Shown here one piece after another: positions 32,892 through 52,093 of a stretch of 64,000 bases of DNA. The notes below the pieces were generated by a model. It saw only the letters and a program-made list of their open reading frames with translations, was not told the origin of the DNA and did no database searches. The translations under genes and the position numbers were made by a program. Position 1 is the first letter of the stretch. Every line of letters begins with the position of its first letter. The DNA lies in assembly GCF_024204665.1 (NCBI RefSeq), contig NZ_CP100355.1:124001-188000 (forward strand), read 5' to 3'. The DNA is from Natronosalvus rutilus. Its GTDB lineage: Archaea; Halobacteriota; Halobacteria; Halobacteriales; Natrialbaceae.

Positions 32892-33311
32892 ACAGAATAC
32901 CCGTTCCCGTTTCCCTACTATAAAGGTTCTGTTTGTGAGCGGCGAATTCGGGCTCGAGCGGCCCGATAGACCGTCTTTACGCGCACCACCCACCAGAAAG
33001 TATATGTCGAATGAAGTTCCGGCGGGCGTCGGACCCCCTCGAATCGGCCCAAACTGCCCTCGAACGCGCTCGCGCGCGCTCTCGAGACGGTCTCTGAGTC
33101 ACCACGAACGCAGCGCCTGGTCGACGGGGACGGCAGACGATTCCGCTACTCGTTTCGAGTCTCGAGACTCGAGAGCCAACAGACAAGGCCGAGACTCGAG
33201 ACTCAAGCCCCGGGCAGGTACGAGCGACGGTACACGCAACCAATTTGCACCGCCGAGAATCGACTGGTGTCGAGAGACGGCTGGGTCGTGAAAGCGACTC
33301 CGCCGACGAAT
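32892..33311. other. 420-base gene-free region with TATA-like box and GAGTCTC palindromes
   Basis: Holds the histone-fold gene promoter (32918-32925). A plus-strand gaaagtatatgtcg at 32996-33009 looks like a TATA element. A cluster of overlapping palindromes built from gagtctcgagactc follows at 33156-33208. No frame in between looks coding. The palindromes can fold into a long hairpin and lie downstream of the minus-strand quinoprotein gene, so they may end its transcript. A small RNA starting near 33025 is possible. Confidence 0.4.
33156..33208. repeat. Palindrome cluster based on gagtctcgagactc
   Basis: The 14-base perfect palindrome gagtctcgagactc begins at 33157-33158. A second, related copy containing cgagactcgagactc lies at 33190-33204. 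Eight-base arms (gagtctcg / cgagactc) can pair across ~30 bases, nested with the local palindromes. Confidence 0.5.
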
Positions 33312-34628
33312 TCAGCGAACCGCGAACAGTCCGTCCTCCCCGCCAAGATAGACCGTTCCGTCGCTCACTGCGAGGTGATCACGGAGGACGCGGTGATCGT
33401 CTTCGAACTGCGGCACGTCCTCGAGGTGGAGACACCACGCTTCGCTACCGTCTTCGACGCGGTAACCCTTGAGGAACTCGTTGCCGTTCCAGTCGGCCGT
33501 GATCGCGATGACCGTTTCCCCCACGACGACCGGGTCGCTGTACAGGCGCATTTCGTCGACGGACCAGCGCTCGCTCGAGCCGTCGGATCCGGTGTCGAGG
33601 TTCGTCATACGGAGCGTCTGATCCTCGCCGATCGTTGCGAACGCGAGGACGTCGTCGGCGGCGAAGGTGCTCCTGCGGGACGAAACCGAGCCCACAGTCT
33701 CGCCCGTTTCCGGGTCCAGGAGCAACACTTCTCTGCTGTTTCCGTCGTGAATCAGGACGTACTGATCGGTCGCCACGGGGCGCATCTGCCACATCCAGCC
33801 GGTCTCGGATACCCACAGCGTGTCGCCGGTCTCCGGATCGAGCGCGACGACGTGAGCCGTGTCTCCGTCGATGCCGACCGTCGCGTAGACCGCGTCGTCC
33901 GTAACGGCCAGCGAGTACGCATGGAACGTGTCGAACCGGCCGAGAAGGGAATCGCCTTCGTCGATCTCGTCGATCGAATGGCGTTCCCACGCGATCGATC
34001 CGTCGTCCGGGTTGACCGCGTACAGTCGCTCGTCGTCGTCACCACAGACGTAGAGCAGTCCGTTGGCGAACTCCGGCTGGTAGACCGACGGCGCCTCTTC
34101 GCCCTCGCCGAACCACTGCCGCCATCGAACGGCCCCGGTGTCGGCGTCGAGGGCAGTCAGCGCCTCGCCGCCGACGAAGACCCAGTCCCCGACGACGACC
34201 GGTGCGAGGTTCGGACCGTCGTCGGCTCCGATGTCGGGACTCACCCACTGCAGCGAGCCCGTTTCGGCATCGAGGGCGTGAATCCGATCGTTGCCATCGT
34301 GGCGGTACACACGCCCGTCGCTGATGGCAATCCCGTCGTTCGCCTCTACGTTTCCGTAACTCCAGGCGACCCCCTCGAGTGCGCTCGGTTCGTTCGCGGC
34401 GGAGACTGCACGCGTACTGCCGCTATTCGCGTAAAACGAGTACCAGCCGTCGGACGGTTCGGCGTTGAATGTCGATTCGGTGACAATTTCCGTTTCGCCG
34501 TCAGTACCCGCGTCGCTCGAGTTCTCCGTGTCGTTCTCCGCGCTTCCCGAACCCACCGTCGCGAAGACGCCAGTCGTCAACAGGGCCGATCCGGATACGA
34601 TAACGCTTCGTCTGTCGAATGTCGGCAT
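33312..34628 (-). CDS. Exported PQQ-like beta-propeller protein
   Basis: 438 residues. The N-terminus FDRRSVIVSGSALLTTGVFA is a twin-arginine signal ending near SGSA, without a lipobox Cys. A short acidic Ser/Asp linker follows, then seven or eight propeller blades with repeated motifs: ALDAETGSLQW, ALDADTGAVRW, AVNPDDGSIAW and ALDPETGDTLW. It should fold outside the membrane. Quinoprotein dehydrogenase activity cannot be assumed because catalytic and quinone ligands are not obvious. Upstream, an inverted repeat (34679-34710) may be its operator. Confidence 0.88.
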   Translation of the reverse strand: MPTFDRRSVIVSGSALLTTGVFATVGSGSAENDTENSSDAGTDGETEIVTESTFNAEPSDGWYSFYANSGSTRAVSAANEPSALEGVAWSYGNVEANDGIAISDGRVYRHDGNDRIHALDAETGSLQWVSPDIGADDGPNLAPVVVGDWVFVGGEALTALDADTGAVRWRQWFGEGEEAPSVYQPEFANGLLYVCGDDDERLYAVNPDDGSIAWERHSIDEIDEGDSLLGRFDTFHAYSLAVTDDAVYATVGIDGDTAHVVALDPETGDTLWVSETGWMWQMRPVATDQYVLIHDGNSREVLLLDPETGETVGSVSSRRSTFAADDVLAFATIGEDQTLRMTNLDTGSDGSSERWSVDEMRLYSDPVVVGETVIAITADWNGNEFLKGYRVEDGSEAWCLHLEDVPQFEDDHRVLRDHLAVSDGTVYLGGEDGLFAVR

Positions 34629-34678
34629 ACACCAGCCACCACGAAATTCCGTATTGCTATCGGCCTACTAACCGTAAC

Positions 34679-34710
34679 TTTCACGTCGAGCAACCGTTTC
34701 AATCGTGAAA
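34679..34710. promoter_or_regulatory. Inverted repeat tttcacg...cgtgaaa
   Basis: Seven-base arms at 34679-34685 and 34704-34710 are separated by 18 bases, 50-80 bases upstream of the exported beta-propeller gene. The spacing suits a dimeric regulator or two half-sites. Confidence 0.35.
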
Positions 34711-34790
34711 TAGTCCTCTTGTGGGTCTGATAAATGCCCGAAGGGCGACGCCATAGATGAACTCTCGGACAGCACTCAAGAATCGTATCA

Positions 34791-38010: not shown

Positions 38011-39759
38011 ATGAGCGACGAGGCTACGAGCCAGAAACTGACCGAACTCGCCAAGCGCCGCGGCTACTTCTTCCAGTCTTCAGACGTCTACGGCGGCGTC
38101 GGCGGATTCTACACGTTCGGTCCGCAGGGTGCCGCGCTGAAGGGCAATCTCGAGGACGCCTGGCGGGGTCGATTCGCCGTCGAGGAGGGCAACATGGAGA
38201 TCGACGCGCCGACGATCATGCCCGAACCCGTCTTCGAGTCCTCGGGCCACCTCGACACCTTCGACGACATGCTAGTCGAGTGCCCCGAGTGCGGCGAGAG
38301 TCACCGCGCCGACCACGTCGTCGAGGACAACACCGAGTACGAGGACGCCGAGAGCCTCCCGATCCCTGAAGTCGAGGAGATCGTCGCCGAGTACGAACTC
38401 GTCTGCCCGTCCTGTGGCGCCGGCCTGGCCGGCCAGGCCATCGACGACTTCAACCTCATGTTCGCGACGAACATCGGTCCCGGCGACTCCCAGCCGGGCT
38501 ATCTCCGCCCCGAGACCGCACAGGGCATCTTCGTCGAGTTCCCGCGACTCAAGGAGTACGCGCGCAACACGCTTCCCTTCGGCGTCACCCAGATCGGCCG
38601 CGCCTACCGCAACGAGATCAGCCCCCGGCGCTCGATCATCCGCACCCGGGAGTTCACCCAGGCCGAACTCGAGTTATTCGTCGATCCCGAGGGTGACGAC
38701 CCGGACCTCTCGCCGGTCGAAGACGTGCCCGTCCGGCTGTACCCGGCGACCGAACAACAGAACGAGGACGGCGAGATCCTCGAGACGACCATCGGCGAAG
38801 CCGCCGAGGAGGGGATCATCGCCAGCCCGTGGATCGCCTACTACCTGGGCGTCGCCCGCGAGTGGTACGCTGCCGTCGGCGTCGACATGGATCGCTTCCG
38901 GTTCCGCCAGCACCTCGCCGGTGAGCGATCGCACTACGCGAGCGACTGCTGGGACGCCGAGGGCCTCATCGACGGCAACTGGATCGAACTCGCCGGTTTC
39001 TCCGACCGGGGCGACTACGACCTCTCGAAGCACGCCGAGGGCTCGGGCGAGCGCTTCACCGTCTTCCGACAGTACGACGAACCCCAGACCGTCGAACGCG
39101 CGAGCGTCGACCCCGACATGAGCTACCTGGGTCCGGAATTCGGCGGCGACGCCGGCGCAGTCGCCGACGCCCTGGAGTCGCTGGCCGAACGCGACCGCGA
39201 GGCCTTCTCCGGCGACGTCGTGGAGGTCGACCTCGAGGGCAAGAGTCACGAAATTCCCGTCGAGAAGACGGGCTTCGCCGTCGAGGACGAAACCATCGCG
39301 GGCGAGCACGTCACCCCACACGTCATCGAGCCCTCCTTCGGCGTCGACCGGCTGCTCTACACCGTGCTCCACCACGCCTACGCCGAGGACGAGGTCGACG
39401 GCGAGGACCGGACTTACCTCGCCCTCGAGCCCGAAATCGCCCCGACCTTCGTCGGCGTCTTCCCGCTGCAGAGCGACGACGACCTCGAGGCGACGGCCGA
39501 CGAGATCGCCGCGGCCCTGCGCGCCGAGGGCCTCTCGGTCACCTACGACGACTCGGGTAACATCGGCCGGCGCTACCGCCGCCAGGATGAGGTCGGTACC
39601 CCGTTCTGCGTCACGGTGGACTACGAGAGTCTGGAGGACGACACCGTGACGGTTCGAGAACGGGACTCGACGACCCAGACGCGACTGGCCATCGACGACC
39701 TTCCGGAGGCGCTGTCGGCGCTGCGGGCCGGCGACGTCGAATTCGAGGATCTCGCGTAG
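38011..39759 (+). CDS. glyS: Glycyl-tRNA synthetase
   Basis: 582 residues, the eukaryote/archaea-type alpha2 class II synthetase. Motif 1 region near the N-terminus (RGYFFQSSDVYGGVGGFYTF), a zinc-binding insertion (CPECGESH and CPSCGAG), the glycine-specific YLRPETAQGIFVEFPRL, motif 2 FTQAELELFVDP, and motif 3 VIEPSFGVDRLLY. The C-terminal anticodon domain follows (VGVFPLQSDDDLEAT). It charges tRNA-Gly in the cytoplasm. A single gene with its own promoter. Confidence 0.97.
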   Translation: MSDEATSQKLTELAKRRGYFFQSSDVYGGVGGFYTFGPQGAALKGNLEDAWRGRFAVEEGNMEIDAPTIMPEPVFESSGHLDTFDDMLVECPECGESHRADHVVEDNTEYEDAESLPIPEVEEIVAEYELVCPSCGAGLAGQAIDDFNLMFATNIGPGDSQPGYLRPETAQGIFVEFPRLKEYARNTLPFGVTQIGRAYRNEISPRRSIIRTREFTQAELELFVDPEGDDPDLSPVEDVPVRLYPATEQQNEDGEILETTIGEAAEEGIIASPWIAYYLGVAREWYAAVGVDMDRFRFRQHLAGERSHYASDCWDAEGLIDGNWIELAGFSDRGDYDLSKHAEGSGERFTVFRQYDEPQTVERASVDPDMSYLGPEFGGDAGAVADALESLAERDREAFSGDVVEVDLEGKSHEIPVEKTGFAVEDETIAGEHVTPHVIEPSFGVDRLLYTVLHHAYAEDEVDGEDRTYLALEPEIAPTFVGVFPLQSDDDLEATADEIAAALRAEGLSVTYDDSGNIGRRYRRQDEVGTPFCVTVDYESLEDDTVTVRERDSTTQTRLAIDDLPEALSALRAGDVEFEDLA

Positions 39760-46136: not shown

Positions 46137-46862
46137 TCAGTCTCCGTCCGTCCGGTCGACCTGCAGCGTCTCCTGGCCGATGAATCGCGGGCGTTCCTCG
46201 ATGGCGAGGAAGTTGTCCACGTCCTCGCGGGCCTCCTTCGCCTTTCCGCGGTCGGGATCGTAGTCGCGCGAATCCTCGCTCCCGAGGGCGTCGTAGAGTG
46301 CCTCGAGTTCCTCGAAATAGAGTTCCGCGATGCCGTCGAACTCCGCGTTCTCGGGGTCGGCGGGGAGAACGGTCGCGTAGCGGACGACGCCCTCGATGTC
46401 GCGGGCGATCGGGGTATGCTCGTTCTGCCAGTGGTCGACGAACTCCTCGTGGCTCATCCCTTCCTGGCGGACGAGGAACGCCGAGTGCTTGTACAGCCCC
46501 GTCGTGTCGCCGTCGGTCTCGTCCTTCTGAACGATCTCCTCGCCGATGAAGCGGGGGCGACCCTCGAGGTCGAGGAAGTTGTCCACGTCCGCGCGGGCCT
46601 CGACGGCGACCTCCTTCGTCGGGTCGTAGTCCCGGGAGCCGGAACTGCCCAGCGCGTCGTGGAGGTCCTCGAGCGTCTCGAAGTAGAGTTCGGCGAGGCC
46701 GTCGAACTCGGCGTGTTCGGGTTCGGTGGGGAGAACGGTCTGGTAGCGGACGACGCCCTCGATGTCGCGGGCGATCGGGGTATGCTCGTTCTGCCAGTAG
46801 TCGACGAACTCCTCGTGGCTGAGGTCGTCCTTCCGGACCAGCAACGCGACGTGTTTGTACAT
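46137..46862 (-). CDS. Tandem EthD/dimeric alpha-beta barrel protein
   Basis: 241 residues built from two near-identical EthD-type ferredoxin-like domains (residues ~1-110 and ~122-235), each with SHEEFVD(Y/H)WQNEHTPIAR, VVRY(Q/A)TVLP and RPRFIG. EthD domains form dimeric barrels and can act as monooxygenase-like or sensor proteins; fusion of two domains makes an internal pseudo-dimer. The first repeat is slightly more diverged than the second. The gene likely starts the operon with the HD hydrolase. DNA identity of the repeats is notable. Confidence 0.9.
   Translation of the reverse strand: MYKHVALLVRKDDLSHEEFVDYWQNEHTPIARDIEGVVRYQTVLPTEPEHAEFDGLAELYFETLEDLHDALGSSGSRDYDPTKEVAVEARADVDNFLDLEGRPRFIGEEIVQKDETDGDTTGLYKHSAFLVRQEGMSHEEFVDHWQNEHTPIARDIEGVVRYATVLPADPENAEFDGIAELYFEELEALYDALGSEDSRDYDPDRGKAKEAREDVDNFLAIEERPRFIGQETLQVDRTDGD
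46378..46820 (-). repeat. Nearly identical 77-base segments in the two EthD repeats
   Basis: 46378-46454 and 46744-46820 match at 76 of 77 bases although the flanking repeat sequence is less alike. The segment encodes the HEEFVDxWQNEHTPIARDI stretch of both domains. This points to a recent duplication or local gene conversion. Confidence 0.8.
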
Positions 46863-47939: not shown

Positions 47940-49550
47940 GTGCGACTCGTCCAGCTATCGGTTCCGGAGGGAAAACTCGAGGCCGTCCGCAAGGCCCTCG
48001 ACGAGGACGACCTCCCCTACGTCATCACGGACGAAACCAGCGGCCGCGGCCACGAGGCGCTCGTCTACATTCCGCTGCCGACGGGGATGGTCGAATCGAC
48101 GCTCGATACGCTACGCGCCCGTGGCATCGGCGAGGACGCCTACACGGTCGTCGTGGACGCCGAGACGGTCATTTCCGAGGAGTTCGACGCGCTCCAGGAC
48201 GAGAACGACGCCGGGGACGTCGAGTCCGAGCGCATCTCGAGACAGGAGCTACGGACCGAGGCCGCCGAACTGACGCCGCCGCTCGACGTATTCGTCGTGA
48301 TGACGGTCGTCAGCACCATCGTTGCCACGGCGGGGCTCCTCCTCGACTCGGCGGCCGTCGTCGTCGGCTCGATGGTGATCGCGCCGCTGATCGGGCCCGC
48401 CCTGGGTGCGAGCGTCGGCTCCGTGATCAACGACGAGGAACTGCTCACCAAGAGCGTCAAGTACCAGCTTCTCGGAGTCACCCTGGCGATCGTCGCGGCG
48501 GCGGTCTTCGCCTGGCTCGTCAGGCTGGGGAACATCGTGCCTCCGGGACTCGCCATCAGCGGCGTCGGCGAAATCGAAGAGCGCCTCACCCCGGACCTGC
48601 TCTCGCTGGCCGTCGCGCTCGGGGCCGGCGTCGCCGGCGTGGTGAGCATCACGACGGGCATCTCCGTGGCCCTCGTCGGGGTCATGATCGCCGCCGCCCT
48701 CATCCCGCCGGCGGCCGCGGCCGGCATCGCCATCGCCTGGGGCGAACCGATGGCCGCCGTCGGCTCGACCGTCCTCGTCCTCGTGAACGTCCTCTCGGTG
48801 AACCTCGCCGGACTCCTCACCCTCTGGTACGCTGGCTACCGACCCGAACGGCTCTTCGATCGAGGCCTCGCCGAGCGCCGCGTTCGCAAACAGGTCGTTG
48901 GCCTGATCGTCGTCGTCCTTATCTTCTCGACGTTTCTGGGTGGGATCACCTACTCGAACTTCACAACGGCCACCTTCGAGGACGACGCCCGCACCGAAAC
49001 CGAGGAACTGCTCGAGCAAGAGCAGTACGCGGCCTACGAACTCATCGCCCTCGAGATCGAACTCACCGACGACTTCCCCTTCCGCGGGCCCGAACGGGTG
49101 ATCGTCACCATCGGCGGCCCGCCCCAGGACGCCCCGCTCGAGATCGCGACCGACCTCGAGGAACGCATCTCGGCACAGACCGACGACCCCGTCGCGGTCG
49201 ACGTCCGATACGTCGACCTCATCTCCATCGGTCCGCAAAACGACAGTGACGAAGAGGCGGCCGACGGCGACGAGACGGGACTCGACGAAGATGAGACGAC
49301 GTCGCTTCAGCAACCCGTGTCGCATCAACAACCGGCGTCGATCCAGCAACCTGTGTCGCATCAACAACCGGCGTCGATCCAGCAACCTGTGTCGCATCAA
49401 CAACCGGCGTCACTCGAGGCACACGAGCGAACGCGGGAAGGGAAAGCCAGTCAGCGATCTCGAGACGGCAACTTCGGTTCGTATCCGATAGCGTCGACGG
49501 CGGCCTCGAGCACCGCGTCGACGTTCTCGCCGGTCTCGACACTCATGTAG
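47940..49550 (+). CDS. DUF389 membrane protein with Gln-rich repeat tail
   Basis: 536 residues. An N-terminal ACT-like domain (residues 1-70) precedes the DUF389 helices (residues ~115-340) with LIGPALGASVGSVINDEELL and ITTGISVALVGVMIAAALIPP. A cytoplasmic domain follows to residue ~435. The tail then carries three 12-residue repeats (QQPVSHQQPAS(I/L)) and ends antisense to the C-terminus of the convergent GTPase gene. Repeat DNA is lower in GC than its surroundings. DUF389 proteins are predicted transporters. The final ~45 residues are probably an accidental extension. Confidence 0.85.
   Translation: MRLVQLSVPEGKLEAVRKALDEDDLPYVITDETSGRGHEALVYIPLPTGMVESTLDTLRARGIGEDAYTVVVDAETVISEEFDALQDENDAGDVESERISRQELRTEAAELTPPLDVFVVMTVVSTIVATAGLLLDSAAVVVGSMVIAPLIGPALGASVGSVINDEELLTKSVKYQLLGVTLAIVAAAVFAWLVRLGNIVPPGLAISGVGEIEERLTPDLLSLAVALGAGVAGVVSITTGISVALVGVMIAAALIPPAAAAGIAIAWGEPMAAVGSTVLVLVNVLSVNLAGLLTLWYAGYRPERLFDRGLAERRVRKQVVGLIVVVLIFSTFLGGITYSNFTTATFEDDARTETEELLEQEQYAAYELIALEIELTDDFPFRGPERVIVTIGGPPQDAPLEIATDLEERISAQTDDPVAVDVRYVDLISIGPQNDSDEEAADGDETGLDEDETTSLQQPVSHQQPASIQQPVSHQQPASIQQPVSHQQPASLEAHERTREGKASQRSRDGNFGSYPIASTAASSTASTFSPVSTLM
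49308..49415 (+). repeat. 36-bp coding repeat, three copies
   Basis: Units 49308-49343, 49344-49379 and 49380-49415 start cagcaacc(c/t)gtgtcgcat and differ by only one to a few bases. They encode Gln-Gln-Pro-Val-Ser-His-Gln-Gln-Pro-Ala-Ser-Ile/Leu at the end of the DUF389 protein. Confidence 0.9.
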
Positions 49551-51055: not shown

Positions 51056-51906
51056 TCAGACCTCGAGCCACGGCTCGGCACACCAGCCCCAGATGTTGTC
51101 CGCCTCGAAGTGCAGCCCCCACCAGGTGTAGCCGTCGGCGGATTCGGGCCCATTCATGATCCGGCCGGCGGACCCCTCGGGCATCGTCGCGACGATGGTC
51201 GAGTCGGTGCCGGGCTGTTCGCGAGCGTTGAGGTTGGCCGTGGTGTAGACGGTCTGGTCCATCTCGAATTTTCCGTCACCACCGCCGCCGCCGTCGCCCA
51301 CGAAGTCCATCAGTCGCGACCCCGACCAGTCGGGTCCTGGACAGGCCGTCGCGTTCGAACTCGAGCAGTAGCTATTGGTCGGCGCGTGGCGGTGTTCGAT
51401 GATGCCACCGCTGGCGTTACACGGCGCCGACATCGACGTGTAGTAGTTTCTCGGGATGTCGTAGGTGTCCGCCAGGTAGTCGATGAGGGCCGCCGACTGC
51501 TGGTACATCGTGTCCGAAATGTACCCCTGTGATTCGGTCCACTCGTGTTCGATGCCGATCGCGCTCGAGTTGAAGCCGCTGGCGTGCCAGGCGACGTTCG
51601 ACTCGTCGACCATCTTCGTCGTGTGCCCGTCCGAGTTGCGGATCACGTAGTGGGCAGAGACGTTCGCGTCCGGGTTCTGGAACCAGCTGATCGCGCCCGA
51701 GTACGACCCGACCGTCGTGTGCACGACGATCCAGTTGATGTCGTTCACGCCGCGGTCCGCCCACGAGTAGTTGCTCGAGTCGGCCGCGACCCAGCGATCG
51801 CCCGGCTCCTCGGCCGCGAGTGCCGACGTCTGGTCGCCGCGAGCGATGCCGCGCCGCCGACCGAGAGGCCGGCCGCTTTCAGGAGTGTTCGCCTGTTTGC
51901 ATCCAT
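51056..51906 (-). pseudogene. N-acetylmuramoyl-L-alanine amidase with frameshifted Tat signal peptide
   Basis: The mature frame (from ~51835 to 51056) encodes an Amidase_2 (PGRP-like) domain with zinc ligands in IVVHTTVG, AWHASG and TACPGPDW, and NVSAHYVIRNSDG, followed by a Gly linker and an SH3b domain (NLNAREQPGTDSTIVAT). No start fits that frame. In another frame an ATG at 51906 begins a perfect Tat signal (MDANRRTLLKAAGLSVGG), with a TATA box at 51929-51937, 27 bases upstream. One missing base near 51830-51850 would join the two into 283 residues. It is either a real frameshift or a sequence error. Intact, it would be a secreted murein hydrolase. Confidence 0.8.
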
Positions 51907-51928: not shown

Positions 51929-51937
51929 GAATAAATA
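51929..51937 (-). promoter_or_regulatory. TATA box of the amidase gene
   Basis: Minus-strand atttattc in an AT-rich patch is centred 27 bases before the ATG at 51906. This supports the Tat-signal start despite the frame break. Confidence 0.6.
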
Positions 51938-52093
51938 ATTTTTGTCTGGTACACTGTAGGAATTTTGGGCGTATGTCTGATATCGAGTGGCTGTCGGGGC
52001 TCGAGGGGACGCTACCGTTGCACGAGGACGGTACCGCTGACCGATCACCTACCATTATACGACGGCGCACGTACTGTCCGCCAGCGAAAACGC

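Follow-up and report, generated by a model that had tools for sequence, protein, structure and literature searches.

A gene on the minus strand of the Natronosalvus rutilus chromosome very probably encodes a Tat-exported murein amidase, one member of a family-wide set of haloarchaeal enzymes built with SH3b domains. As sequenced, it is a broken copy of a family member, and the exported protein evidently cannot be made from it. The locus lies in a 64,000-nucleotide stretch of contig NZ_CP100355.1 (positions 124,001 to 188,000), referred to here as the window, and all coordinates are those of the window unless a contig is named.

The locus and its interrupted reading frame

On the minus strand, an ATG at 51906 opens a twin-arginine (Tat) signal, MDANRRTLLKAAGLSVGGAASLAAT, in a frame that soon departs from that of the enzyme and meets its first stop near 51745. 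The resulting short ORF (51745..51906, minus strand) consists of the signal followed by wrong-frame sequence; at loci L004, L005, and L006, this signal and the enzyme share one frame. The mature enzyme frame occupies 51056..51831 of the minus strand, including its stop codon (51056-51058), and is open from 52048 to that stop (330 codons). The two frames differ by one base, as a preliminary description of this DNA had maintained. No start codon in the enzyme frame yields a signal peptide, and an alternative start within it was rejected on this ground and for its lack of conservation in relatives.

A TATA-like element, TTATTTAT (51931..51938, minus strand), precedes the ATG by about 27 bases, where a TATA box had been placed before. 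In DNA alignments, the AAAATTATTTA block at this element is kept in two congeners (G175 and G251) and largely kept in a third (G045). The element is a putative promoter, and its spacing would fit a leaderless or nearly leaderless transcript. The neighbors of the gene are ordinary chromosomal genes common to the same three genomes, a pattern indicative of vertical inheritance in the genus. A viral lysin origin was rejected in view of these neighbors and of the lack of a relative in viral contigs, which were searched with patterns derived from the amidase protein.

In all three congeners, Tat signal and enzyme form a single frame that begins at the same ATG, behind the same upstream AT-rich element. 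The signal and domain order sought in relatives is therefore present in them, and the possibility that homologs might start elsewhere was not borne out, since the start is shared and a complete Tat signal stands in the mature frame. The frame change maps to 51829..51832, outside any homopolymer run, where the window lacks one base that each of the three has. A restoring base had been predicted near 51830-51850, and the alignments put it at the lower edge of that range. All of about 30 more distant full-length haloarchaeal homologs in the set listed, three excepted, also carry the Tat signal in frame with the enzyme; the exceptions, L043, L045, and L035 (from Halorussus litoreus, Halorubellus salinus, and Haladaptatus halobius, respectively), look broken or lack a signal.

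The mature frame is 97%, 95%, and 76% identical to its orthologs in G175, G251, and G045, respectively, and its pairwise nonsynonymous/synonymous rate ratio against G175 is 0.087. Because the orthologs this similar are read in one frame, and given this ratio, the enzyme frame is not a chance ORF. The window branch carries 2 nonsynonymous and 7 synonymous changes. Judged from the substitution pattern, the mature frame is under purifying selection and long-standing decay is excluded, so the break would be either a recent mutation or a sequencing error.

A recent and real loss-of-function mutation, with decay of a dispensable accessory weapon, has about an even chance of being the explanation. 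The distribution is patchy, with Amidase_2 domains in 50 of the 391 genomes sampled from the class, representing 20 of 86 genera. A second hydrolase is still present in the genome, and further homologs (for example, L043 and L045) look broken, although these copies may themselves be errors. The absence of any further decay on the window branch counts against this explanation, as the mutation would then have to be very recent. An error of sequencing or assembly, with the strain in fact making an intact exported enzyme, comes a little short of an even chance. It accords with a mature frame that is still constrained and has no other defect, with an intact regulatory region and signal, and with the occurrence of single-base, error-like breaks in these assemblies. 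For instance, a glycyl-tRNA synthetase-like gene (glyS) reads as a single open frame in the window (38011-39759) and is broken in G175 (L046-L049), probably through an assembly error there. However, the base missing from the amidase gene is not part of a homopolymer, and such breaks are scarce in the window genome. When ~114 kb of G175 gene sequence was aligned to that genome and codon-position patterns were used to judge each case, most of the apparent frame changes traced to starts that had been chosen wrongly. The amidase gene and one other, poorly conserved, were the only genes that seemed to have a real frame change in mid-gene, or about 2 among 110 genes, a judgment by eye rather than a calibrated rate. 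The assembly is consequently not riddled with errors.

Programmed frameshifting, or a non-exported form begun at an internal start, is very improbable as the working product. The enzyme frame is indeed open well upstream of the mature protein, but relatives do not conserve the protein sequence of the upstream part. A programmed frameshift was rejected since the site has no slippery run and relatives do without the device, their signal and enzyme already being in one frame. If the break is real, the strain would make a short signal fragment, or else an unexported enzyme from an internal start that would be without a substrate. The weapon would then have been lost very recently, with a secreted SH3b-M23 endopeptidase kept.

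Three other features of the window were recorded. At 33090-34790, both sister species possess extra DNA (~31 kb in G175 and ~26 kb in G251) that is absent from the window and looks like an island or integration site. An ORF at 46137-46862 is made up of two almost identical halves in tandem (MYKHVALLVRKDDLSHEEF... repeated), an internal duplication with the same cross-matches in relatives. Short repeats (QQPVSHQQPASI...) at 49250-49410 form a small tandem array in the C-terminal part of the ORF at 47940-49550.

The amidase domain and the SH3b module

The catalytic part of the protein (51332..51745, minus strand) matches Amidase_2, the N-acetylmuramoyl-L-alanine amidase domain (PF01510), at 5.5e-27 and 95.1 bits against a cut-off of 26, over positions 3-131 of 131. 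With residues counted from 51820, His34 (51719-51721), Tyr58 (51647-51649), Glu91 (51548-51550), and His143 (51392-51394) are invariant among 27 haloarchaeal sequences, and the third-ligand position, Cys160 (51341-51343), is Cys or Asp across relatives. The Asp-Pro-Gly-Pro of AmpD aligns with Cys-Pro-Gly-Pro in the window. The zinc-ligand and catalytic roles of these conserved positions are established for the family, and the loss of zinc ligands that might have spoken against the assignment is not seen, as both zinc and catalytic positions are kept.

An AlphaFold model of the protein has a mean pLDDT of 80.8, with values below 50 at residues 153-161 (the loop with the Cys) and 176-182. Its best match in the PDB is AmpD with products (2y2b, 4e-8), followed by endolysins (LysC, PlyP100, XlyA, and PlyL) and staphylococcal AmiA/AmiE, with animal PGRPs lower. 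The earlier label of a "peptidoglycan-recognition type" amidase is accordingly apt at the level of the family, although its closest counterparts of known structure are amidases from bacteria and phages. As a member of the murein-amidase family, the domain has putative activity on the MurNAc-L-Ala bond. In plasmid records, relatives covering about two-thirds of the query (the amidase part) are found in Halorussus, Haladaptatus, Halocatena, Streptomyces, and a few other bacteria.

The amidase is followed by an SH3b domain, a putative wall-binding module (51059..51274, minus strand), which matches SH3_3 at 20 bits, below the cut-off of 27. The preliminary description had given the same order of domains. 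Relatives with several SH3b copies score above the SH3_3 cut-off. Because the single copies examined fall under it, surveys that depend on Pfam cut-offs may miss such proteins.

Relatives of the module occur in 46 of 391 haloarchaeal genomes and, where examined, are nearly always beside a murein-cutting domain. Departures from the usual pairing exist. For example, the amidase at L025 has PG_binding_1 instead of SH3b, and L139:94-1794 is a Tat-exported protein of the GH18 chitinase family that bears a pair of SH3b domains; the module is thus not necessarily confined to murein enzymes. At L129 and L132, Tat-SH3b proteins share a conserved C-terminal domain that has no match in Pfam or NCBIfam and is possibly a further wall enzyme; it may resemble SleB-type hydrolases.

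Related hydrolases and their possible use

The window genome has a second, intact gene of this kind on contig 1 (2995739-2996497), comprising a Tat signal, SH3b, and an M23 peptidase (M23 at 1.3e-27). Its M23 part matches NCBIfam NF052336, "peptidoglycan hydrolase" (2.6e-55), and a glucosaminidase relative matches NF052335 (1.1e-73); the names of these models suggest the enzymes of Halogranum salarium. Genes from other genera of the family match the Tat-SH3b-M23 gene at 93-94% identity, which suggests recent transfer on a comparison of these genes alone. A third hit in the genome, C4 (E 0.046), falls on an ORF that resembles a DNA methyltransferase and was set aside as a chance match.

Among Tat-exported haloarchaeal proteins, the same SH3b is combined with an amidase, M23, glucosaminidase, or lytic transglycosylase domain, and such genes are in some cases neighbors. 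At L086, a run of three neighboring genes in the same direction encodes transglycosylase-SH3b, SH3b-M23, and SH3b-amidase proteins, and a glucosaminidase-SH3b gene is located elsewhere in that genome. Amidase, M23, and glucosaminidase genes stand in a row at L087, and an M23 gene adjoins a transglycosylase gene at L090. Fusions are also found, with amidase, four SH3b domains, and glucosaminidase combined at L096, and transglycosylase-SH3b-M23 at L097. Together with the likeness of SH3b modules within a genome, co-occurrence of this sort suggests a co-targeted, murein-cutting set of enzymes.

The SH3b modules of different enzymes within a genome have a median identity of 82% (n=25 pairs), and those on the same enzyme across genomes 58% (n=211 pairs), a contrast that is a pattern rather than a test because the pairs are non-independent, several genomes are close relatives, and the non-exhaustive gene set was drawn from clusters already seen. 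The amidase and M23 proteins have SH3b domains that are only 58-59% alike in the window genome and in its sister, so co-targeting is not evident in the window genome.

We infer the amidase activity, the wall binding, the target, and any antibacterial use of the intact protein. The folded enzyme would leave the cell by the Tat route and be held on a bacterial wall by SH3b. With a bound zinc ion, Amidase_2 would then split L-alanine from N-acetylmuramic acid in bacterial peptidoglycan and so take off the stem peptides, and glycan strands and cross-links would be cut by the remaining enzymes. Since one type of SH3b is carried by different murein-cutting domains, several bonds of the same wall could be attacked together. 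The Halobacteria, to our knowledge, have no murein of their own, and immunity would thus not be needed.

A broader reading, offered tentatively as it is on balance doubtful, is that haloarchaea maintain an arsenal for murein demolition, in which Tat-exported enzymes attack different bonds, the SH3b domains of a strain are alike and bring every enzyme to one prey wall, and the arsenal can be redirected when the targets change. Likeness of the modules within a strain would be kept by gene conversion or module swapping. Alternatively, the hydrolases may serve to feed on the peptidoglycan of dead bacteria, or to remove debris, rather than to kill, a use that is quite conceivable if not probable. 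A set that covers several murein bonds is also suited to digestion, and the published work on related archaeal enzymes does not rule scavenging out (PMC12352652). Those enzymes nevertheless kill living bacteria (PMC12352652), and no uptake or catabolic genes were seen beside the hydrolases in a non-systematic reading of the loci.

Whether archaea attack bacteria, and by what means, is only just becoming testable. With the present locus and its relatives, the known archaeal enzymes come to include SH3b-targeted amidases and transglycosylases. These genes also offer natural experiments, namely a copy broken recently whose sister copies are intact, and strains in which a near-identical binding module is found on different enzymes. 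If binding modules track prey, their likeness within a genome would be a readable record of the wall targeted.

Comparison with known enzymes

The window enzyme shares its sequence family, fold, and catalytic positions with the characterized Amidase_2 proteins (AmpD, PlyL, XlyA, LysC, AmiA/AmiE, and the PGRPs). It differs from them in its murein-free host, its Tat export, and its haloarchaeal SH3b partner. Weaponized bacterial hydrolases of the lysostaphin type have the same combination of an exported catalytic domain and SH3b, and the SH3b of lysostaphin binds the prey wall, according to literature cited in PMC12352652. The lysostaphin type employs M23 whereas the window gene encodes an amidase, and binding of a target by the archaeal SH3b is putative.

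The principle that archaea possess hydrolases that kill bacteria has been known since 2025, when Strock et al. reported the secretion of such peptidoglycan hydrolases and described two from Halogranum salarium B-1, Woldo and Danwoldo, that kill a halophilic bacterium (PMC12352652). Their report leaves the choice among predation, competition, and scavenging open (PMC12352652). It was the only paper on Halobacteria together with SH3b and peptidoglycan in the literature collection searched; in its searched text, SH3 appears only in the references, and neither transglycosylases nor adjacent multi-enzyme clusters were found. Proteins of the SH3b-amidase family may nevertheless stand in its supplementary tables. 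Among these hydrolases, killing has been demonstrated for the Halogranum enzymes only (PMC12352652). Strock et al. define the class by a catalytic and a wall-binding Pfam domain and an in-frame signal (PMC12352652). By this definition, the Amidase_2 domain of the window gene is over its cut-off, SH3_3 reaches 20 bits against 27, and the signal is out of frame in the window and in frame in G175, G251, G045, and other relatives.

Compared directly, the window gene has an Amidase_2 catalytic domain and an SH3b module, whereas Woldo and Danwoldo have M23 or glucosaminidase domains and bind through PG_binding_1 (PMC12352652). Their M23 and glucosaminidase domains appear to correspond to those of relatives in the window family (NF052336 and NF052335), as judged from the model names. 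The window family and the Halogranum pair are alike in being Tat-exported haloarchaeal proteins with a catalytic and a wall-binding domain. In the haloarchaeal SH3b sets, related binding domains are carried by different enzymes from a single strain, and the same holds for Woldo and Danwoldo (PMC12352652).
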